Positions 12,330-27,792 of a DNA stretch of 64,000 bases are shown piece after piece. The DNA is taken from the NCBI RefSeq assembly GCF_001316265.1, contig NZ_BBDN01000001.1, forward strand, positions 62,001 to 126,000, given 5' to 3'. The DNA is from Vulcanisaeta sp. JCM 16159 (GTDB lineage: Archaea; Thermoproteota; Thermoprotei; Thermoproteales; Thermocladiaceae). How positions within the stretch are numbered: position 1 is the first letter of the stretch; every line of letters begins with the position of its first letter. Made by a program: the position numbers and the translations under genes. The notes under the pieces were generated by a model. The model had not been told where the DNA came from, did not search any database, and was given only the letters and a program-made list of their open reading frames with translations.

Positions 12330-13801
12330 ATGCTTGATAAGTGCTGCACCGAGGTTGGTATTACAACGAGCGGAGCATCAGTTGGTTTAGTGCCGATTCA
12401 GTTCTATAAGAAGGCTGAGAACCTGGCCCTGGAGGAGCAGTTAGTCATTATTCATGATCCATCCCTCGAGGATGAATTACTACTTGGTGTTGTTAGGAAT
12501 GTGACGAAGCTCGAGCCTCTCATTAGGGATAGGGTTAGGTCGCCCTTCGTAGATAGCCTGAGGTTCTTGATCAAACAATTCTCATGCCCTTCACCTCAGC
12601 TGCCGTTAGGCTTTATGCGGCATTAAAGCCAAGCACAAAGTCTGTGCTTGAGGTCAGGCACGTACCAACACCAGGCTCTAAGGTCTTTGTTATTAAGGAT
12701 GGCAAGTTCCTCAATGATTACGTAAAGTCTAACCTGCCAATTTACGTTGGCAGTCATAAGTACAGTGGTTGGCCCATTAGCCTGGACGCGAGCTTCGTTA
12801 ATCAGCACGTTGGCGTCTTTGGAGCCACTGGCGTGGGTAAGTCCAGGCTTGTTAAGGCCCTAGTTGAGGAGCTGGTTAGGGTTGGAAAGCACGTAATTGT
12901 CTTTGATCACAGTGGCGTAGATTACGCGCCGCATTTCAGGGATAGGGTAATAACCTCTAAGGAGATTGCCATCTCACCACCAACAATAGCCTCCGTAATC
13001 GCTGAGAAGGCCAGGCTTAATTGGCAGACCTTCGGTGAGTACCTGGAGGTCGCAGTGATCACTTACGTAAGTGGTGACAAGAAAATGAAGAGACAACAAT
13101 CGGCTCAACTAATTGATCCGCAGCCAAGCGCTCAAGCCAATCAAGTGGTTAGGTGGGATAAGGCATTATTCACGAAGCACCTCGTGGATAGTATGAGGGG
13201 GCTGGGCGCCAGGGACTCAACTGTTGAGAAGGCCAGGCTCTTCATTGACTACTTCATAGAGAATGAGTTCTTCGATGAGCTTAATAGGAGGACTTTATCG
13301 CCGATGGACATCGTAAACAAGGCATTGAAGTCAAGCCCGGTGGTCATTGACTTAAGCCTTGACCCTGAGCTGGTGGTTAAGCAAGCAATCGTCGCTGACG
13401 TCATAGATGCCGCCTGGAGGCTGGTCAAGACCAGTAAGACACCGCTTGACTTGGTCTTCGTCATTGATGAGGCCCAGAATTACGTGCCTGAGAATGAGTG
13501 GACGATATGTGGTGATGTCATTGAGACTACGGCTAGGGAGGGCCGTAAGTGGGGCTTATCGCTTATCGTTGCCAGCCAGAGGATTGCTAGGGATGTTAGG
13601 GCCAGTGTCAGGGCTAACCTCGGCACGGTATTCTTCAGTAGGTTGAGCGCCCAGGGCGACTTGAGGGAGATAGCCGCATACATGGACCTGGCGGACGTGA
13701 GCGAGGCAACCCTGGCCCAACTGGGTACTAGGGAATTCTTCGTGGCTGGATTGATGAATCCATTGAGGAAGCCAATACTGATTAGGGTTAGGGATGCCTA
13801 A
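12330..13801 (+). CDS. HerA-type FtsK/HerA superfamily ATPase, one frameshift
   Basis: About 490 residues in two frames. The first 90 residues look like the HerA beta-barrel (HAS) domain. The frame moves near 12585 (SHAMPFTSAAVRLYAALKP), then the motor domain follows: Walker A GVFGATGVGKSRLVKAL, Walker B LVFVIDEAQNY, and LIVASQRIARDVRASVRANLGT with the arginine region typical of HerA. HerA works as a hexameric DNA translocase with the nuclease NurA. A nurA gene lies 33 kb away rather than beside it, so this could be a paralogue. TTTATAAG sits 30 bases upstream of ATG 12330. Confidence 0.82.
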
Positions 13802-14209
13802 CAATCAATTCCCCGCTTACGCAACCCCTCCACAATCTTAATACCGAGCCTTGCAACCTCTCTATACTCCCTTACCTATTATTCTCCGGATCACGTTGAT
13901 GTCGATTATACCGTATTGATGAACCACAATATTCCTAAACCTAACGACAGACCTATACCTACTAAACTCCTCATCACTAAGCAATCCAGCACCCACCAAC
14001 TTATTACCGGCGTCTATGTAACCCTCAACCTCAAGGCCCATAGCCGATGCGGCCTTAACAGCCATATCAATGAGAGACTGGGCCTGAGCCTGCAGCAGGT
14101 ATACGGCTGAGAAGTACTTATACACGTCCTCCAGGTCATTAACGCTTAAGCCATCCAGCAAGGATGTGTAATGAAGGAGGAGCTTCAATAGGCGTTCTAT
14201 CGCACCCAT
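13798..14209 (-). CDS. hepT: HEPN-domain toxin of the HepT (DUF86) family, one frameshift near the C-terminus
   Basis: An all-helical protein with the HepT signature RNIVVHQY (R-x4-H-x-Y), the RNase active site. The first frame stops at 13862; shifting near 13868 gives the usual basic helix REYREVARLGIKIVEGLRKRGI ending at 13798, where it overlaps the herA-like stop. Total about 136 residues. HepT is an RNase toxin that is neutralised when MntA adds AMP to the Tyr of this motif. It overlaps the upstream nucleotidyltransferase by 13 bases. Confidence 0.85.
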
Positions 14210-14607
14210 TTCCTAGTCACCGCACCTATTTGGGTCCCCAATAAATCAAGCTTCTCGGCGTCAATCATGAAGTCAAGGCAGGGCGCTAGAACCTTCAACT
14301 TGATGTCGAGGTATTCATCAAGGTCCCTGTAGTAGATTACCCTGCCCCTACCCAAAGCGTCTATTATTAATGAGCAGGGCAGGTACTCATAATTATTAAG
14401 AATCACTAAGTCCACGTCCTCATCACGCACATGGAGAAACCTAGCCAATGCGTACTGAAGGTCGAGGTCCCTATTAACATCAGCTAGCCAAACGGTAATA
14501 TCCCAATCACCCTTAACTACCCTACCCCACACCCTAGAGCCAAATAGCACAGCGAAGACCACACCGTAATCGCTCCACGGAAATAACCTCAAATCACCAA
14601 CGCCCAT
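14197..14607 (-). CDS. mntA: MNT-domain nucleotidyltransferase, MntA antitoxin
   Basis: 136 residues of the minimal nucleotidyltransferase fold. FAVLFGSRVWGRVVKGDWDITVW contains the GS motif and the metal-binding Asp-x-Asp, and DVDLVIL supplies the third Asp. In MntA-HepT systems this enzyme AMPylates the HEPN toxin. It begins 18 bases after the end of the surface-protein operon on the same strand, so the two may share transcripts. Confidence 0.85.
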   Translation of the reverse strand: MGVGDLRLFPWSDYGVVFAVLFGSRVWGRVVKGDWDITVWLADVNRDLDLQYALARFLHVRDEDVDLVILNNYEYLPCSLIIDALGRGRVIYYRDLDEYLDIKLKVLAPCLDFMIDAEKLDLLGTQIGAVTRKWVR

Positions 14608-14625: not shown

Positions 14626-15177
14626 TCAGCCCTTACTTATACTTATTATTGCATAGCCCAACTGAATATCAGTACTATTCCAAGTACATGATGGGAGTGG
14701 GCTCGATGGTACTTGACATATCCATGATGAGTTAGCTAGAGTTACCTGTCGCCCTTCCCTGCAATTGTATGCAATAATAGTGTACGGCTGTGTTGATGAG
14801 TAGAGTAAGGTTGTTGTTCTCATCACTCTCGTTATGGGGCCCAAGCTTGCTGTCACGGTTATGTTGGCCATAAGCACCATCATGCAACTTTCACTCTTTG
14901 GATATAGCGTTATGTTGTAGTTTATGGCCAGTCCCTGAGTCGAGAAGGACGATGTAGGTAATAAGAACGTAAAGTTAAAATCCCCGGCAACATCGCTGAA
15001 GGACGCTATCGAGACGGCAGTCTCCATCTCATGCTTAAGCGCTGACGTTATCAGCGAGGTTATATAATTGGCAGTGTTTAGTAGGTTCATGGATATGTAG
15101 TAATTCATATACCAGGTAAAGACTATCACAAGCGCCATTAGAGCCACCGTCATTATTATGAAGGCCAGCGTGTCCAT
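14626..15177 (-). CDS. Pilin-like membrane-anchored surface protein F
   Basis: About 183 residues. One long N-terminal hydrophobic helix (MDTLAFIIMTVALMALVIVFTWYM) is followed by a short helix and a beta-rich ectodomain with Asn-x-Ser/Thr sites and several Cys. Unlike its upstream neighbours it has no Lys/Arg-Gly before the hydrophobic stretch, so class III signal processing is not evident. The start is taken at ATG 15177, since that begins five bases after the preceding stop at 15182; an earlier ATG at 15198 would overlap. Last gene of the six-gene operon. Function unknown. Confidence 0.7.
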   Translation of the reverse strand: MDTLAFIIMTVALMALVIVFTWYMNYYISMNLLNTANYITSLITSALKHEMETAVSIASFSDVAGDFNFTFLLPTSSFSTQGLAINYNITLYPKSESCMMVLMANITVTASLGPITRVMRTTTLLYSSTQPYTIIAYNCREGRQVTLANSSWICQVPSSPLPSCTWNSTDIQLGYAIISISKG

Positions 15178-15181
15178 AACC

Positions 15182-16018
15182 TCACCCGAAGCCAACACCT
15201 ATCTGAACTATGGTTACGTACACGGTATTACCCAACACAACAGCGCTCGAGCTATTGGTTTAACACCATTACCGAAGTAACAAACCTCACTAATCTTCAA
15301 TATACCACCATTTCTAAGAACTATTGACTGAGAACTAATATTCTGAATGCTAATGATCAACCTGCCCCTACCCTGATTACTAATTAGGTTAAGCACGGGT
15401 ATGTACACATACCCAATCCCACCAGGTCCAGTGCCGTTTATAGCCATAACCCTAGGAACCATGACCAAGTAAGTGCCATAGTTAATGCCATTGAGGTTAC
15501 CATAACCAAACTGCAGAACGGCCATTGATGTACCCAGCAACACACGTGTTTGGTAACTAACAATTAGGGATAAGTCGTTTAATGATGATGTGGGTACTCC
15601 GTTGATCGTCGAACCCCTCCATACACTACTAAAACCTGGTGGTAATGAGAAGTAGGTGGGTGGTACACCGTATACTAATCCACCGGTTGTCTCATTAATA
15701 ATGTTATTATTCGATGCTGTATTAACGGATATAACGCATAGCGAATTCATAAAGTTATAAGTTCCGTAATTAGTATTCGGTAATTGATACGTGAGTACAG
15801 CGCCTGGCACGAACATGAATGTATCAATGTCATCCGCGACATTCGTTAGAATGATGCAACGTACTCAATGGATGATTGGGAAACCTCATTACCAAACTGC
15901 ACCATGGAGAAAACCATGAATATGCACTCACAACCATTATCACGGCAATCAAAATGACAATACTCAGCACGTCGCTCTGCCCAACCCTCCATCTCGTATT
16001 GACGGGTCTACTTATCAT
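15182..16018 (-). CDS. Type IV pilin-like surface protein E, paralogue of D, frameshifted
   Basis: Reconstructed from four frame segments: N-terminus WRVGQSDVLSIVILIAVIMVV (16018 onward), then MVQFGNEVSQSSIEYVASF, then LTNVADDIDTFMFVPGAV, and near 15240 a shift to NSSSAVVLGNTVYVTIVQIG, ending with TGA at 15182. About 275 residues. The N-terminus has the shape of an archaeal class III (pilin) signal: basic stretch, Gly, then a hydrophobic helix. The ectodomain shares NYGTYN, a following Cys, GVxPxY, LPxGF and a late VC-x-x-GN with gene D, so D and E arose by duplication. Confidence 0.7.
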
Positions 16019-16022
16019 TCAA

Positions 16023-16775
16023 TCACCCATAATACACATATATGTATACTGGAAGTATTTCAATTTTTCCACTAAGCACAGCACCACTACTCACCACTTC
16101 ATTGCCGATACCACACACGTAGTTAATGATGTATGTTCCAGGGTTATCATAGTTGTAATTAATGGAGATCGGGTACGTCACATTAAACACAATTAAATTA
16201 CTCAGGTTGGGCTTGAAACGACCAATCAACACAGGCACCATCAATTCATACTGATCACCACCCATAGTAAATACAGCTACCCTGGGATACAACGCGATGA
16301 ACTCGCCATAAGTCACGCCAGAGATTGTGGATGCTCCATAGAACACCACATTAAATAAATTACTTGATCCATTAACCGCTATTAAACTTTTATTTCCCAG
16401 GAGCACGTTAATGTATCCACTGGGCATTGAACCATAGCTTGGCGATACGCCGAAAATTACACCGCCACTACTATACACGGTTGCCCCATTAATTGTTAAA
16501 TTACAGAAGGATGGCACAACGTTGTAAGTCCCGTAATTAGTCATAAAGACCGGGTAACTAAGCACATTAGATGGTATTGGGCTAGACAAGGCACTGTCCA
16601 GGTCAGTGGCTATGTTGTCGAATAAGGTCTCGACCTGCGAGACCGACACACTTGCAGACGCCTTACCAAAGTTGATCCCAACGATTATGTAGAATATGAG
16701 GCCCAGGGCAATCACCACACCCATCATAATGACCATACTAATAGTCTCACTCAAGCCCCTCGACATACCCATCAC
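16023..16775 (-). CDS. Type IV pilin-like surface protein D
   Basis: 250 residues, intact. The N-terminus MMGMSRGLSETISMVIMMGVV is a clear archaeal pilin-type signal: Arg-Gly cleavage site, Glu shortly after it, then a hydrophobic helix of about 20 residues. The rest is beta-rich, with many Asn-x-Ser/Thr sites and two Cys that match gene E (in SFCNLTI and YVCGIGN), possibly a disulfide. It ends in the aromatic string VYIYVYYG. Its ATG overlaps the stop of gene C by four bases, indicating translational coupling. Confidence 0.75.
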   Translation of the reverse strand: MMGMSRGLSETISMVIMMGVVIALGLIFYIIVGINFGKASASVSVSQVETLFDNIATDLDSALSSPIPSNVLSYPVFMTNYGTYNVVPSFCNLTINGATVYSSGGVIFGVSPSYGSMPSGYINVLLGNKSLIAVNGSSNLFNVVFYGASTISGVTYGEFIALYPRVAVFTMGGDQYELMVPVLIGRFKPNLSNLIVFNVTYPISINYNYDNPGTYIINYVCGIGNEVVSSGAVLSGKIEILPVYIYVYYG

Positions 16776-18541
16776 CCACCAGCCACACTCATTAGGCCCA
16801 GGTAAACCAGGTAATAAGTGCCATTGGACAGCTGAATGATGGCGTAAGCCGACGCCGTTGGTGCGAAGCCGCTTAGGAAGAACCTCTCCCTATACTGCGG
16901 AGGCACCATGTTGTACTTATTAAGTAATTCGAAGTTGTAGGAAGTCGTGATGGGCATGTAGTAAGACGTAGTTGGTGATGGTGTTACCCATAGATCATAG
17001 ACTATGGTCGTGGCATTATAGGCATACCAAACAACATTATTATTCGGATTTTGTGGCGTACTTTGCCGTACTAGTAAGCTGCCGGGCACAATAATTAGGC
17101 TTATACTTGTTATGTTTGGGTTCATCATTAATTGAGTACAGTTGAGCCCATTATTGCTTGTTAAGTTATAGAAATACGAAAGTGAAGTACTACTCATCGT
17201 AACTAGGTCATATATTGATGCGTTTATATCTATTCCACATCTCGCAGGATCTAGCGATAACGATAGTGTGAGTATGTATGCATAGTAGTAACTAGGTAGT
17301 TGCGTGGTATTAATATTACCATTAATACTTAGAGATAGGTATTCATGGGTATTTCCATACGTCTCGATCACGTTTATGTTACCAATACCCATTGGGAAAG
17401 AAGCGCTGGCGATTGACCCAGTATAGTCATTTACACACGTATTATTGATGAAGCAGATATTTAGCTCGACATTAACATTATTAAAGCCTAGCGTGAAGTT
17501 CGTACCTGGTATCGATGTCATTAATTGTCCAATTAGATAGGCGTTAATTCCACCTACGTTACTACTAATGCTTACTGGTAAGGTGCAGCTGGCCGTCGTT
17601 GGAGCATTTAGGCTTTGCCCTGATGCAGTTCCACCACTCGTTAATATCTTAACTAGGTAATTACTACCGCTGTACATACCATTACCACTTGAGTAGCATT
17701 GAGATAGAGATTGCTGGGTATAATAGTTCATGAACTGTGGCTCATTATTATATGGAGCAGTGAATGAGGAGTACATGATGTTGCTGACGCCACCGATTGG
17801 GTAGCAATATGGGTATTGACAATAAGAATTACTTAACACATTGAAGGGGGTACTCCCGTTAGACACGAGCATGTAAACATTGCCGGTGGCATTAAGCCAA
17901 ACCACGGCAACGCCAGTGCGTGGATCGAAGAACTCAAGCCACCAACTGAGCATCCTAACATTACCGCTTTCAAGACATTGTGTTATGTTCGTCTCAAGTG
18001 GGTTCTTGCACTGTATAAAGGCCACGTTTGATAATGGTGCACTGGTATTTATTGAATAACTACCACCAAGTAGGGAGTTTATTGCGTATATGTTTAGCGA
18101 GAGCATTGACGCACTCGTACTGGTCACAAATATTGGCATGCCCAACGGAGGCGCGTAGTAAACACTCGGTATTATACTCAGCGGTACCAGTGCGTAATTT
18201 CCACGATTCACAACAGACGTTAAGACCACAATGTCTCTATACGGAACCACAGCAATATACCAATCATACTGAGGACCAACAATCGTATTGAGCAGTGAAC
18301 GTATGGCGTTCCAGTTACCGTGCTGTACGTAATACGTGAACTGCGGATTGCTGATGGCCGTTAGTAATATGTCGTATGCGTACCACTCGGTATTCGTCTG
18401 CACCTGGCTCCTCAGTGTCGTTGTTGGTGAGTTGAAGATTATTGGTAACAACGCCGCCAATATGAGCACGATTATCGTAGCCGCAATTGCCTCGATAATC
18501 CTTGCCTGACCGCGGTTAAACCCATTGGCTGGCTCTGTCAT
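16772..18541 (-). CDS. Large pilin-like surface protein C
   Basis: About 589 residues from ATG 18541. The first residues FNRGQARIIEAIAATIIVLILAALLP form a class III-like signal (Arg-Gly, then Glu and a hydrophobic helix). The ectodomain is very rich in Asn, Ser, Thr and Tyr, has scattered Cys pairs and many glycosylation sites, and ends SNGTYYLVYLGLMSVAGG. An upstream in-frame start at 18589 would add a second hydrophobic segment but would bury the signal, so I prefer 18541. No known domain is recognised. Size is far above ordinary pilins (about 100-150 residues). Confidence 0.7.
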   Translation of the reverse strand: MTEPANGFNRGQARIIEAIAATIIVLILAALLPIIFNSPTTTLRSQVQTNTEWYAYDILLTAISNPQFTYYVQHGNWNAIRSLLNTIVGPQYDWYIAVVPYRDIVVLTSVVNRGNYALVPLSIIPSVYYAPPLGMPIFVTSTSASMLSLNIYAINSLLGGSYSINTSAPLSNVAFIQCKNPLETNITQCLESGNVRMLSWWLEFFDPRTGVAVVWLNATGNVYMLVSNGSTPFNVLSNSYCQYPYCYPIGGVSNIMYSSFTAPYNNEPQFMNYYTQQSLSQCYSSGNGMYSGSNYLVKILTSGGTASGQSLNAPTTASCTLPVSISSNVGGINAYLIGQLMTSIPGTNFTLGFNNVNVELNICFINNTCVNDYTGSIASASFPMGIGNINVIETYGNTHEYLSLSINGNINTTQLPSYYYAYILTLSLSLDPARCGIDINASIYDLVTMSSTSLSYFYNLTSNNGLNCTQLMMNPNITSISLIIVPGSLLVRQSTPQNPNNNVVWYAYNATTIVYDLWVTPSPTTSYYMPITTSYNFELLNKYNMVPPQYRERFFLSGFAPTASAYAIIQLSNGTYYLVYLGLMSVAGG

Positions 18542-20745
18542 AATCACCACCATGGTGAATATTGTTGCTGCTGACAGGATGGTAACCACTGGCTTGGCGT
18601 ATAGCGTAGTACTGAAGTTGGCCGTTTACAAATACGTAATATAGATTATAGTTGACATACATATTACCGTTCTGAGATGTTCCCTGGCAGTTTAATATTG
18701 TGTAGTTGAAGTATGTGTAGGGTAGTGTTTGGTTGGGGAAGTGCTCGTACTCAGTTATCCAGTTATAGAGCCGCGTGGGTAATTAGCCGTGTTGCCATAA
18801 CCGGTTATGCTCGTTTGTGCCGGTGGAACCACCTGACTTATTACTGTGTAGCCTGTGGCCAAGTTGTACAGGGTCTCGTTGAATGTGAATATTGACATTA
18901 CGTGCATTGGGAACACATTATTAACCTTGAGTATGTTTAATGTCGATATTGGTATTACTGGACCTATTACTGCATATTCATATCTATTGATTATATTCGT
19001 TATGTACAGACCCGTGCTTGAACCGTATATCGATAGTAATGTAGGTACGCCAAGGTTTATGAAGTAAGTATTAGTAATTAGCTCGTTACTTGTTTCATTA
19101 AGTACATAAGCAATGTATGGTATGAGGGATGTAGCCGAGTAACCTCGCGGGACCACCGAGTTTTGCGGGCGGGCCCAGGGATTTAGTGCGAGTATTATGT
19201 TGCTGTAATTAACGAGTATTAGGTACTGGGTTGTTGGGTAGCCCGTGGGCGGCCAGGGCATTTGCACGTTGAATACTATTGCGTTACTTGTTATGTTACA
19301 TACGGTGTAGTTAATGCTGAAGCTTTTTGTTCCCAATGTGGGTGTTACGGCTAGTCCACTGAGTGTTGTGCCCAGTGCCGGGTTATTGTTTATGGATACC
19401 TCTATTGGTATGTTTATGGGCAGGCTGTAGCTGTTGAGGTACTTTACTGAGGCGTTTATTACCGCGGCATTACTAAGTATTAGGGCTATCCAGGAACCAA
19501 CGTACACGCCATAATTAGTGTCATAGCCGCTCAATATATATGCATTATTGTTGAATATCGTATTTGGTATTAGGTGGAGGTTGGGTAGGTAAACCGTGAT
19601 TTTACCTGCGGTATTGCCGTTAACGTATATTGTGGCGGTCCCAGTGGCACTACCACCAAGTAGGTTAATTGGTTCATTTGGAGTTACGATTACCGTCACA
19701 TTTATTATAGTTGAACTTGATGAATAACTAACAGTACATCCACTATTGCTGTAACTGTACTTACTATTGCCGGATTGCGTATTTAATGGTGTTATGCAGA
19801 TTGTGTAGCCTTTATTGCCTGTGCCGCTGGTTGGTGGTGTTGGTGTTAGGAAGTTTATGCCCACTAGGTAGTTGTTTGGTGATTGGGTCACGTTAAAGGT
19901 TGCGGATATTACGAAGCCGCCTTGCCCCATGAGTTCATCGACTGGGTACGTGAACACCAGCGGGTATGTGCCTGAGGAGACTACCCAACCAACGCCCTTT
20001 TGCCAATACTCCTGGCTTGGGTATGCCCCGTAATAAGGTGCCCATAGTGAGTTGGCTTGCCCGGTGGAGTATATTCCGGGTCCTGTGCATGTGTAGGTGT
20101 TTGTTTTGAAGTTGAATGTGCACTCTAGTGTTGCGTTGTAGGTCATCGTGTTTGGGCTTATATTGCATGCGCTATTTGGTGCTATTGATGCTGTTAGGTT
20201 TATGGCGTAGTTTAGTGTTAGGTGTTGTATTCCTAGGCTTGGTAGGTCGTAGGTTTGTTGGGCACTTGCCAGTATTAGTGATTTATTGCCTCCTGAGTAC
20301 ACGTACTTAATGCCGGGTATGCTGAGTGCTCCGTAGAACCCGGTTACGGCTGTTATGCTTGTGTTTAGGCTGCTTTCTGGTACTATTAGTCCTGTTGGTG
20401 TGTATATGCTGTTTATCATTAGTTTTAGCTGTGATTCAATCACGTTGGAGAGTGAGTATGATACTGGCATGGAGGTTAGTGCGTGTAGGTATAGGGCTAT
20501 TCCCTCATTCATTAGGAATTGGCTGTAGTTTATGGCGTAGCTGTGACTACGGCATTCATTACCTGTATTAATTGTTCAACGATTACCTGTGGGTCGTACT
20601 TGAGGGCGTAGTACACGCTCCTTTGGTATATGTATGCTGGGGTCATGGTGAATTCCCTGTAGATGAGGGCTATAACGAGTATGAGGAGGACCAGCAATAT
20701 GGCAATTATTAGGAGTCCCTGGCCCCCCTTGCTTATGCTGGCCAT
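18516..20745 (-). CDS. Large membrane-anchored surface protein B, frameshifted
   Basis: Starts MASISKGGQGLLIIAILLVL, a Lys-Gly site before a strong hydrophobic helix. A frame change near 20545 joins QVMNAVV to SYAINYSQFLMNEGIALYL and the long ectodomain. A second near 18778 gives RLYNWITEYEHFPNQTLPYTYF and an end at 18516, where it overlaps the start of gene C. About 740 residues, mostly beta-strand-like with Tyr, Asn, Thr and Gly, several Cys and no recognised domain. The very C-terminus is uncertain because of possible extra indels. Its ATG lies seven bases after the stop of gene A. Confidence 0.65.
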
Positions 20746-20751
20746 GCTTTA

Positions 20752-22253
20752 TCACCCCATTGGCCCGAAGGCGTTTCCTCCGTAGTATAGGTATAGGGTT
20801 GCGTAGTAGCTGAGTCCCCAATGTATACTAGGGACGTTGCCGTGCCCACGGGGGCGTCCTTTATCGATTCACCGAATACTATGACCCTATTACTTAGGTA
20901 GAATTGTGGTGATATTCCGTAGGGTATTACGAGAATTTGTGACTTAGGTATAGTATTTGGCTGTCCCTGGGAGTTTCTGTAGACCGTGACTATGAGGAAC
21001 ATTGGTGAGCTTGGTACGTTCCAGTAACACACGGAACTCTTTTGACCGCTGTTGGGGTTGTTACTTGGGTAGGTGGTTGTGCAGGGTACTGGATATGACT
21101 GTTGGCTATTACCGTTAGCTGGACTCAGGGTAAAATTGGTTTCTTGAAATACGTAACCGTAGACTGATTTATATATCGCCATTACCCTAAGCCCGAGTGA
21201 ACGCTTTCCAGTAATATTGTAAATGATTTCTAGGCAGGTTGTGTTGAGGGCGCTTGGGTCTATGAAGAGTATGGAGTTCATGTTTGTGCTGTTGGGCAAT
21301 ATCATTACCATTAGTAGCGGTATTGTTATGTTGTTCGGCCACACTAGGTAGCCGTGGTCCCCAATCCCGCTTATGCTTGCGTATGCGTCTATGTATATGC
21401 TTGATGCGTTGCTTATGTATGGGTGGTTCACGGTTATGTTTCCTGCCGTATTTGTACAGTTTAGGGTTGCCATGTTGAAGACCGCTATCCCATTATTGTT
21501 AGTGGTCTCCGGCGGTGATGTTCCTGCACATATTGCAAAACTGAATTTATTACCACCTGAGCTGCTATAGTACATTATTGTGTATGTTATTTGTACGGTC
21601 GCGTTAGGTACTGGTTGTTGTGGGTTTGTGTTGAATCTCGTTACTTTTACCATTACTGTATTTGTTAATGTGTTATTGGTTACTGTAACGTTAAACACCG
21701 GGTATATTACCAGTTTGAAGTTGTAGTTCTTGCTAAGACCCAGCATTTCCTTTACACTTGCGTAGTTGAGGGATGCCTTTGCCAGGCTGGTGGGCATTAT
21801 TATGAAGTAGTTCGTTATGTATAGGCTCGTAATGTTGAGACTGTTTAGGTACCCGAAGAAGCCGGTGCTTGATTGTGGTACTTGACATATGGCTGATGTT
21901 CCCGAGGGTGGTGGTAATGGGTTTATCCCGTTTTGGTAGTCCCAGTAGGTTAGGGCTAGTACCTTGAATGGGTCTAGGCTGTATGGCTGGTTTGGTTCGG
22001 CTAGTCCGAAGGCGGCTAGTTGGCTTGCGTTTAGTCCCCAACTGGGTGGGTTTCCGGGGTTAGTGACTATGTATTGGAGTAATGATTGTGCCATGGCGTT
22101 TAGTTGGAATGTGTTTACTTCCGAGCCTGCGGAGTAGGAGTAATTGGGTATGAGGGCTATAAATACGATTATTGCGATTATTATTGCCGGTATTATTATT
22201 GCTATTTCAATCGCGCTTGTTTGGCCCTTGGTCGTTGTTTTAGAATTGATCAT
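20752..22253 (-). CDS. Large pilin-like surface protein A, first gene of the operon, one frameshift
   Basis: The N-terminus TTTKGQTSAIEIAIIIPAII is a class III-like signal: Lys-Gly, then Glu six residues later inside a hydrophobic helix. The ectodomain of about 460 residues has many Asn-x-Thr/Ser sites and at least eight Cys. The annotated frame runs past the next gene's start; a shift near 20825 gives WGLSYYATLYLYYGGNAFGPMG and TGA at 20752, which places the next ATG seven bases later, so I prefer that end. TTTAAAAAC about 31 bases upstream is the likely operon promoter, divergent from rpl6. Confidence 0.7.
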
Positions 22254-25190: not shown

Positions 25191-26711
25191 TCACATGCTA
25201 TGCAGCTTATCCATTATCAATGCCTTACCCAGATCATGAATGCTGCTGATCTTTATGAATAGGCCACCGCCAATCTTCGAAAGCCTCATTAACAATTCAT
25301 CATCACTATTCTCGCCAATGGCTATTGTAGATATTGTAGCGCCGCCCCTCCTAAGCCTAACAGCCTCCTTAATACACATGCTTGAGTTCACAGTCCTGCC
25401 ATCAGTCACGCAGATTACATGCTTAGAATTGCTCCTCGACCTGGTAAGCACCTCCCTGGATCTCTCGAGGGCGTTTGCCAGGTTTGTGCCGCCGCCGGCG
25501 TACACGTACTTAAGCATGTAATTCATTTGCTGCCAATACCTCCTAACCTGGTGCAATCCCCAAAGTACGTCAGCCCTGAAGTTGAATAGTACCATGGCAA
25601 GCCTATCATTGGTTTTTGATAGGAATTGTATGTACTGGCCCACTGCATCCTTGGCGATCTCTATCTTGGGCATCCCATTACTGAGCTCCCTCATGCTTCC
25701 CGATACGTCTAAACAAAGCACGATGTCTATGGTCTTAACATTCGCGTACTCCTTAACCACGATGTCCTTGTTAGTGAATAGTTTATGCATTATGGACTTC
25801 CTGCTCAGGTTCATAGCCGTCTTCTGCAGGTCAACGTCGAAGTAATTATCGCCAATTTTGTACTCCCTAACGCTGACTACGTACGTTGGGTACTTATCAA
25901 TGTCCGTAAACCTAACAACCTTAACCTGCCCCATACCACTCATTGCATTCTTAACCACATTCCTCAAAGCCTCAAACACCCTCTCCCCATCCCTATTCCT
26001 CCTGAAGTCGGTAGGCAATAGGCCGTAGTTCCTGAGGTACGGCTCCATCTTCCTGAGGACCTTGGTTTTCTCCACAATATTTGCGTATGGATCAATGAAC
26101 ATATTTATTAATTGGGCAAGGTTTAGGAAATTGACTGTGCCGACACCGCCATATAGAATTTCATATATTGTTGATATTATTGAGTCAAGCTTTGCGTCCT
26201 TACCATGATCATCAACATTGGCAACCAATGACCTACCCATCTGTAACTCCTGGCCCTCCTCAGCACTATACTCAGCGCCAAACCCACCGCTAATACTGCC
26301 CGTACCACTCTCATAATCGCTTCTCTCCACATTCTCATTAATTTCACCACCATTGCTAACATTAAATCCAGCAACCTGCTGTGTTGAAGCCTCCTCGGTC
26401 TTCTCCTGCCTTTTCTCGGCATCCTCAAATGCCCTTTCAAAGGCCTCCTCAAGGACCTTCCTTTTATCATCTGGATTTGACGTCTCTACAGATAGGTACA
26501 GGTTCTCAATGCCCACTCGGATCACCGTCTCCTTAAACTTATCATAATCAAAGCCACCCTCAATCAATATTCTCATCATTATGTCGCTAGCCGCAGCCTC
26601 AAAGCTCCTCACCGAGCCAGGCCGAATAACTCTAAAATCTTCCCGTAAATACTCATAAACCTTGCTAAGTACCTTCGTGATTATTTGTACTGGGTCAATA
26701 TTCATGCTCAA
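25191..26711 (-). CDS. VWA-domain (MIDAS) protein, partner of MoxR ATPase
   Basis: 506 residues. The N-terminal third is helical; residues about 115-165 form an acidic, Ser/Gly-rich linker. The VWA domain follows from about residue 325: VLCLDVSGSM (DxSxS MIDAS), then GGGTNLANALE (Thr) and VTDGRT (Asp), a complete metal site. VWA proteins of this type work with MoxR AAA+ ATPases as chaperones for metal or cofactor insertion or complex assembly. The moxR gene lies directly upstream on the same strand. Cytosolic, since no signal or TM is seen. Confidence 0.82.
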   Translation of the reverse strand: MSMNIDPVQIITKVLSKVYEYLREDFRVIRPGSVRSFEAAASDIMMRILIEGGFDYDKFKETVIRVGIENLYLSVETSNPDDKRKVLEEAFERAFEDAEKRQEKTEEASTQQVAGFNVSNGGEINENVERSDYESGTGSISGGFGAEYSAEEGQELQMGRSLVANVDDHGKDAKLDSIISTIYEILYGGVGTVNFLNLAQLINMFIDPYANIVEKTKVLRKMEPYLRNYGLLPTDFRRNRDGERVFEALRNVVKNAMSGMGQVKVVRFTDIDKYPTYVVSVREYKIGDNYFDVDLQKTAMNLSRKSIMHKLFTNKDIVVKEYANVKTIDIVLCLDVSGSMRELSNGMPKIEIAKDAVGQYIQFLSKTNDRLAMVLFNFRADVLWGLHQVRRYWQQMNYMLKYVYAGGGTNLANALERSREVLTRSRSNSKHVICVTDGRTVNSSMCIKEAVRLRRGGATISTIAIGENSDDELLMRLSKIGGGLFIKISSIHDLGKALIMDKLHSM

Positions 26712-26791
26712 GACTTAACCCCACTATAGATGGTGTGCGCCGTATTAAATAACTTACCCATTTAATTACTTATGCCTGTTCATATTAATGG

Positions 26792-27792
26792 CTATCTCCT
26801 TGAATATCTCCTATACATCATCACAGCCTCATCAAACTTACGGGAAAGATAATCCCTCTTCTCGGTTTCATTGGCGAAGTTTCCGCGAACGACATTAACC
26901 ATATTACTAATGATTTCCCTCTTCAGGTCATTTAACGAAACTTCCCTACCCTCAAGCCATGCCTTCGACATTGCCGTGGTTATTGCGTAGATCGCCGACC
27001 TAATGCTCGGGCCAACCTCAATATTGCTGTCCTGGGAGACTAAGGTCATGAATGTTGCAGTGACCTCCGTTAATGCATCGGGGGCCTTAAGGCCTAGGTG
27101 TTCCATGTACAGGCCGCTCTTCCAGGATAGTATTGACTTGAGGAGATCCTTGTCTGGGTATGGTATTTCCACGACCTTCATCCTATCCGCCAAAGCCTCA
27201 CTGAGTTCATAAACGCCTGAGTACTCGGATGGGTTTGATGTGGCAATTACTAGGAAGTCACTCCTTATCTTAAAGCCCCTAATGAACACGTAGTGCTCCT
27301 GTAATACCTGAAGCAGCGCTGCTTGGCTGTAGGGGTTTAACCTATTTATCTCATCAAGTATTAGTATGCCGCCATGAGCCATCACAAGAGGACCGGGTAT
27401 GTAGCCAGTGGGTGATCAAGCCCTGCCTGTAGGGCTACGGCAATATCAATATCGCCGGTCAATTCCGTGGCTGTCATGTGGCTGTGGCATGCGACCTCGA
27501 TATATGGGGGTTCTGATACGTGTATTATTTCTGCCAAACTCTCAGCCAATGTGGTTTTTCCTACGCCCACAGGCCCCATTATCAGCACGTGCCTACCAAC
27601 GGCAAGGCTACTTAATACGTCCATCGCTATGTCATCCAAGCCCTTAAGCTCCCTCTCCAACTCCGTAAGTATCTTCTTAACGCCCTTGGTCCTTATCGCA
27701 TCTGTGACTAATTTATTAACCTGTATCTCCTCCCTCTTAACCAGGTCTGATAGCCTTGGTAGTAATGCCATCAATTCCTTGCCTGTTGCCAT
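26792..27792 (-). CDS. MoxR-family AAA+ ATPase, one frameshift
   Basis: Walker A is LIMGPVGVGKTTLAESLAE. The frame moves near 27400 (YIPGPLVMAHGG) into Walker B GILILDEINRLNPYSQAALLQVLQEH, then sensor 1 VIATSNPSEYSG, sensor 2 region and helical lid. About 330 residues, normal for MoxR. It sits 80 bases upstream of the VWA gene, a conserved pairing. The client is unknown; no oxidoreductase target is adjacent. Confidence 0.87.

Follow-up and report, generated by a model that had tools for sequence, protein, structure and literature searches.

An operon of pilin-like surface proteins in Vulcanisaeta that probably encodes the minor pilins of an archaeal type IV filament machine whose motor lies elsewhere in the genome

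The window analysed here, 64,000 nucleotides long, belongs to contig 1 of a draft genome of 2.25 Mb (G000), whose same-genus relatives are named Vulcanisaeta. Its minus strand carries six co-directional genes, A to F (22253-14629), which follow each other with overlaps or gaps of a few bases, as an earlier note on this DNA had described:

Gene A, 20755-22253, minus strand: about 500 residues; leader KGQTSAIE and hydrophobic helix, then a large ectodomain with conserved Cys
Gene B, 18609-20745, minus strand: about 730 residues in intact relatives; leader K-G-G-Q and helix, then a very large ectodomain
Gene C, 16772-18541, minus strand: about 590-600 residues; leader RGQARIIE and helix, then a large ectodomain
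Gene D, 16023-16775, minus strand: 250 residues; leader RGLSE, a predicted helix of about 60 residues and a putative beta-rich domain; paralog of E
Gene E, 15185-16018, minus strand: about 280 residues in relatives; leader RVGQSD and helix; frame broken here
Gene F, 14626-15177, minus strand: about 190 residues; Met directly before the helix, with no class III leader, like nearly all its homologs

The products of intact relatives measure about 500 (A), 730 (B) and 600 (C), and 250 (D), 280 (E) and 190 (F) residues. In this assembly, the frame of A is broken near 20808, and its true C-terminus lies in a shifted frame reaching to about 20755; B is spread over three frames, with breaks near 20539 and near 18.7 kb, and E is broken near 15925, 15849 and 15250. 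Because the genes of the relatives are intact, and because SecY and the secretion ATPase TadA are likewise split into several frames in the same draft (TadC is also split), errors of assembly are the most likely cause of the breaks in A, B and E; the frequency of such breaks probably also lowers the apparent completeness of the draft. Gene C probably starts at MTEPANGFNRGQ, and not at the first GTG of its frame. Directly downstream of F lies a nucleotidyltransferase/HepT-like gene pair of the toxin-antitoxin type (13862-14607, minus strand), and upstream of the operon (25191-27792, minus strand) genes for a vWA-domain-like protein and a MoxR-type ATPase were recognized by eye; the latter are found upstream in the Vulcanisaeta loci, not in Caldivirga, and vWA/MoxR pairs have been discussed as possible regulators of type IV pili (PMC4858521). 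A HerA/DUF87-family ATPase (12584-13801, plus strand) is convergent with the operon and is conserved there in several Vulcanisaeta genomes; as a candidate motor it was rejected, being of the HerA/DUF87 family, convergent, and not conserved beside the operon in Caldivirga.

Five of the six proteins had been credited with a basic residue and Gly before an N-terminal hydrophobic helix, as in archaeal class III signals. We scanned class-wide homologs for such leaders ([KRH]G followed by a helix) and, with start codons picked mechanically, found them in 18 of 23 B, 15 of 22 C, 12 of 24 A and 12 of 27 D/E homologs, compared with 38 of 854 background ORFs (Fisher p 5e-19 to 3e-9). The signals thus hold for A to E, and a leader of class III type followed by a helix is present in all five in the Vulcanisaeta orthologs; in the host genome itself, however, the leaders of B and E read KGGQ and RVGQ, with no basic residue immediately before the Gly. 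Among the homologs of F, which the note had implicitly left without a leader, a class III leader is almost never found. The leaders of B, C and D are retained in most lineages. Gene A carries one in Vulcanisaeta and Caldivirga, but not outside the Thermoproteales, where the helix begins at the Met and an acidic residue is found around position 5-7 (METVLEY, MAGSTIDH). Lacking a leader, F and, outside the Thermoproteales, A may be processed unlike filament subunits, to judge from their mechanically picked start codons.

None of the six proteins matched a Pfam or NCBIfam family at the curated cut-offs, and profile searches of PDB sequences gave no match. The AlphaFold models, made from few input sequences, were of low confidence for D (a helix at 5-64 followed by strands; mean pLDDT 51) and poor for A (mean pLDDT 40), and a fold search of the PDB with the D model returned only noise (best E 0.18); we therefore make no structural claim. 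Weak matches, specific to each gene and all below the Pfam cut-offs, were obtained to families of haloarchaeal pilin-like proteins: B to DUF7261, F to DUF7266, D to DUF7289, A to DUF7287, and C to DUF7262 and DUF7288. The best E-values, 6e-5 for DUF7289 and 4.2e-6 for DUF7266 in a genome search, do not reach the curated cut-off; the matches of DUF7261 and DUF7266 in genomes fall on the B and F genes.

Within the family, gene A is matched in 17 of 25 genomes and gene C in 16 of 25. The Vulcanisaeta genomes inspected have the genes in the order A-B-C-D-E-F, those of Caldivirga in the order A-B-C-D-F; gene E, a duplicate of D, was seen at no inspected locus outside Vulcanisaeta. Orthologs of B occur in the loci inspected of both genera, whose flanking genes differ. 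Gene A is the best-conserved member, and its profile detects weak but significant homologs across the class, next to which lie homologs of the other members; a broader A profile has matches in 120 of 397 Thermoproteota genomes. Elsewhere in the class the order is rearranged, to D-F-A-C-B in genomes that we take to be of the Thermofilum type and to A-C-B-D-F in genomes that we take to be Pyrobaculum and Thermoproteus. Profile-profile comparison (hhalign) paired A, C, D and F with genes of the same letter at 92-99.9% probability in at least one lineage pair (P_A/V_A 99.9, T_A/V_A 98.6, P_D/V_D 97.4, T_C/V_C 94.0, P_F/V_F 92.4), and the best pair of different letters reached 57%. Gene B is linked between lineages by its position, its RGQ N-terminus and its size only, at a profile match below 20%. 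The C homologs of most Pyrobaculum and Thermofilum-type loci have just 121-197 residues, and the match of the short Thermofilum-type homologs is to the N-terminal part of gene C (hhalign 94%). Thus, the oversized ectodomains remarked on earlier are present in Vulcanisaeta but are not general; they are lineage-specific. B and C fell into one BLAST cluster, as paralogs might, but profile comparison did not support such a relationship; the cluster probably stems from frame-shifted, fused ORFs. Two Thermocladium loci (L071, L073) have the order A-C-B, and since this order is also that of the Pyrobaculum and Thermofilum-type loci, the A-B-C order of Vulcanisaeta and Caldivirga appears to be a local swap.

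No assembly ATPase, platform protein or prepilin peptidase is encoded in the 64-kb window, in agreement with the earlier reading. In other classes of Thermoproteota such genes are attached to the pilin set. Of 20 loci read there, 19 have homologs of A, B, C, D and F clustered with a T2SSE/TadA-type ATPase and a TadC with a double T2SSF domain, usually in the order TadA-TadC-D-F-A-C-B: in 16 of the 20, TadC is followed by an uninterrupted D-F-A-C-B (the ATPase is divergent in one of the 16), and three have the order D-F-TadA-TadC-A-C-B. The twentieth ends at a contig end, with PilA, TadA, TadC, D and F visible. These operons carry a set homologous to ours, mostly as D-F-A-C-B, and the operon of the window is therefore the pilin half of the TadA-TadC-D-F-A-C-B cluster; unlike ours, they have the machine genes attached, an A without a leader, and subunits of varying size (C 141-466 and B 254-1186 residues, by mechanical ORF calls). 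The cluster often has PilA-like pilins or a prepilin peptidase as neighbours, with PilA-type pilins of 150-200 residues at many loci; a peptidase also adjoins the operon of a relative at one locus (PF06847, 1e-22; also PF01478). The second version of the cluster (D-F-TadA-TadC-A-C-B), seen in some genomes of other classes (L219, L221, L224), has shorter subunits and adjoining PilA-like genes.

Two genomes closer to Vulcanisaeta, G045 and G043, have the five genes next to an ATPase and a double TadC. In a genome that we take to be that of Vulcanisaeta distributa, the ATPase is found apart, with a membrane protein and a cytoplasmic protein as its neighbours, and the TadC stands alone; these two orphans and the linked pair of G045 and G043 are mutually best-scoring partners across lineages, at 47-49% identity for the ATPase and 27-29% for the TadC, well above other paralogs. 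Both Vulcanisaeta and Caldivirga keep orthologs of the ATPase and the TadC as orphans, away from the operon. In the host genome they, together with a prepilin peptidase, are located as follows:

Orphan ATPase, G000:C7:119851-121380
Orphan TadC, G000:C2:100364-102216
A24 prepilin peptidase, G000:C10:31046-31387 (PF01478 match)

The machinery is thus encoded elsewhere in the same genome, as the earlier note had supposed. One genus (g3, five genomes) has neither A nor C, nor this TadC, nor this ATPase (at >60% identity), and every genome of the family that bears A also has this TadC (Fisher p 1.6e-4, a statistic that counts genomes, the loss being essentially that of one clade). We relied on the mutual best matches and on this co-absence for the assignment of the TadC because the tree of double TadC proteins is weak in its deep branches.

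Taken together, we consider it likely, and with good confidence, that A to F serve an archaeal type IV filament machine as minor (non-filament) pilins, that their genes have been split from those of the motor, and that they are assembled by the orphan ATPase and TadC, most likely into a tip complex. Its core subunits are A, B, C, D and F; Vulcanisaeta has a second copy of D, gene E. At most of the Thermoproteota loci examined the core genes lie together with those for a VirB11/TadA-type ATPase and a double-domain TadC, at several also with genes for an A24 prepilin peptidase and a PilA pilin, and this cluster has been split in Vulcanisaeta and Caldivirga. The leaders would be cut by the A24 peptidase of the genome (at about 31 kb of C10), and assembly would most likely proceed via the orphan ATPase (119.9-121.4 kb of C7) and the orphan TadC (100.4-102.2 kb of C2). 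The subunits would insert through their N-terminal helices and join at the platform into a complex which primes assembly and finishes at the pilus tip, with the large ectodomains exposed as adhesive modules; A and F, leaderless in most lineages, may stay membrane-anchored as an assembly or scaffold part. Bacterial minor pilins initiate assembly as a complex at the tip and may bear grafted adhesive domains (PMC10191384), and it is by analogy with these that we infer the likely priming role, the tip location and the adhesion; the choice of major pilin is inferred as well.

Because of the leaderless subunits, the main rival is a membrane-anchored scaffold: the five subunits would surround the base of the machine as a stator-like complex or a short pseudopilus, comparable to ArlF and ArlG of the archaellum or to T2SS pseudopilins, instead of sitting at the tip of an extended pilus. 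A helix running straight from the Met in F almost always, and in A outside the Thermoproteales, together with the acidic residue kept in A, would suit such a role, and a precedent is found in ArlF and ArlG, duplicated filament subunits turned putative stator (PMC8667602) which, like A to F, are pilin-derived, helix-anchored partners of a TadA/TadC-type motor. However, B, C and D keep leaders of cleavable type in most lineages, as does A in Vulcanisaeta and Caldivirga; the profiles of F and D gave no match to ArlF or ArlG in Pfam, NCBIfam or PDB sequences; A to F are larger, and the locus has no other archaellum genes. We regard the scaffold as possible but unlikely. Still less probable is that the operon builds a filament of its own, the new appendage of the earlier note, with D and/or E as major pilins and A to C as decoration: although the N-termini of D and E resemble PilA (Pilin_N matches in three of 15 D homologs, best 0.005), D is a single gene per operon with a product of 250-290 residues, many loci have separate PilA-type pilins within the cluster or close to it, and single genes for A, B, C, D and F fit minor subunits. 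The large Asn/Thr/Tyr-rich ectodomains with conserved Cys, and the absence of machine genes from the locus, had also allowed the reading that the proteins have no part in type IV filament assembly and form a surface coat, an adhesin or a protease complex; this is strongly disfavoured by the phylum-wide synteny with TadA and TadC, and the class III leaders and the co-absence with the motor add to making it very improbable. Its protease version finds no support, the sole protease match being a weak one (PF00026, E 0.031) on an A homolog.

The minor-pilin reading has a precedent in the literature, contrary to the view that no pilus of this make-up had been described in Archaea. Makarova, Koonin and Albers (2016; PMC4858521) noted that Vulcanisaeta and Caldivirga have a locus (arCOG05475 signature) that lacks ATPase and TadC and encodes predicted minor pilins or adhesins; they related it to loci of two Thermofilum species and of Pyrobaculum subclade 4E. 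The affiliation of the ATPase was uncertain, the best candidate being one that adjoins a cytoplasmic and a membrane protein. Our operon and orphan ATPase match that locus in its described features, on which the comparison rests: the genera are the same, as are the predicted minor pilins, the lack of ATPase and TadC, and the similar loci in Thermofilum and Pyrobaculum. New here are the assigned motor, now supported by linkage, mutual best matches and co-absence, the platform TadC, the phylum-wide cluster, and the leader pattern in which A and F are usually leaderless. The bacterial PilHIJK/GspHIJK tip complex and the modular pilins (S. sanguinis PilB/PilC) are similar in that each machine has a number of conserved minor pilins, some of which carry large grafted domains (PMC10191384), which the F5/8 discoidin-type domain of one B homolog (E 5e-11) resembles, but they share no detectable sequence homology with A to F, and the present set has five core subunits instead of four, some of them leaderless. 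The weak, below-cut-off matches to DUF7261/7262/7266/7287/7288/7289 hint, at the level of sequence, at a pan-archaeal module. A wider proposal, which we put forward as a speculation more doubtful than probable, is that a pilin-like complex of five subunits, homologous in Thermoproteota and haloarchaea, belongs to the ancestral core of archaeal type IV machines; in it A and F would be natively leaderless, would stay in the membrane and would form a fixed scaffold, onto which lineages would graft very large adhesive ectodomains.

Thermoproteota have many type IV machines with unassigned pilin sets, and in the 2016 census no motor was assigned to this locus; the link of orphan pilins to one ATPase and one TadC provides a directly testable partner set, and the five-gene signature a means of locating the same machine across the phylum. 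It also raises the question of why two pilin-like subunits lack a cleavable leader. The choice of partners may not be exclusive, since in one genome (G017, presumably V. moutnovskia) a second, solitary A paralog, about 48% identical (L196, 6140-7648), adjoins a different, 4B-like ATPase, two single-domain TadC genes and two PilA-like pilins.
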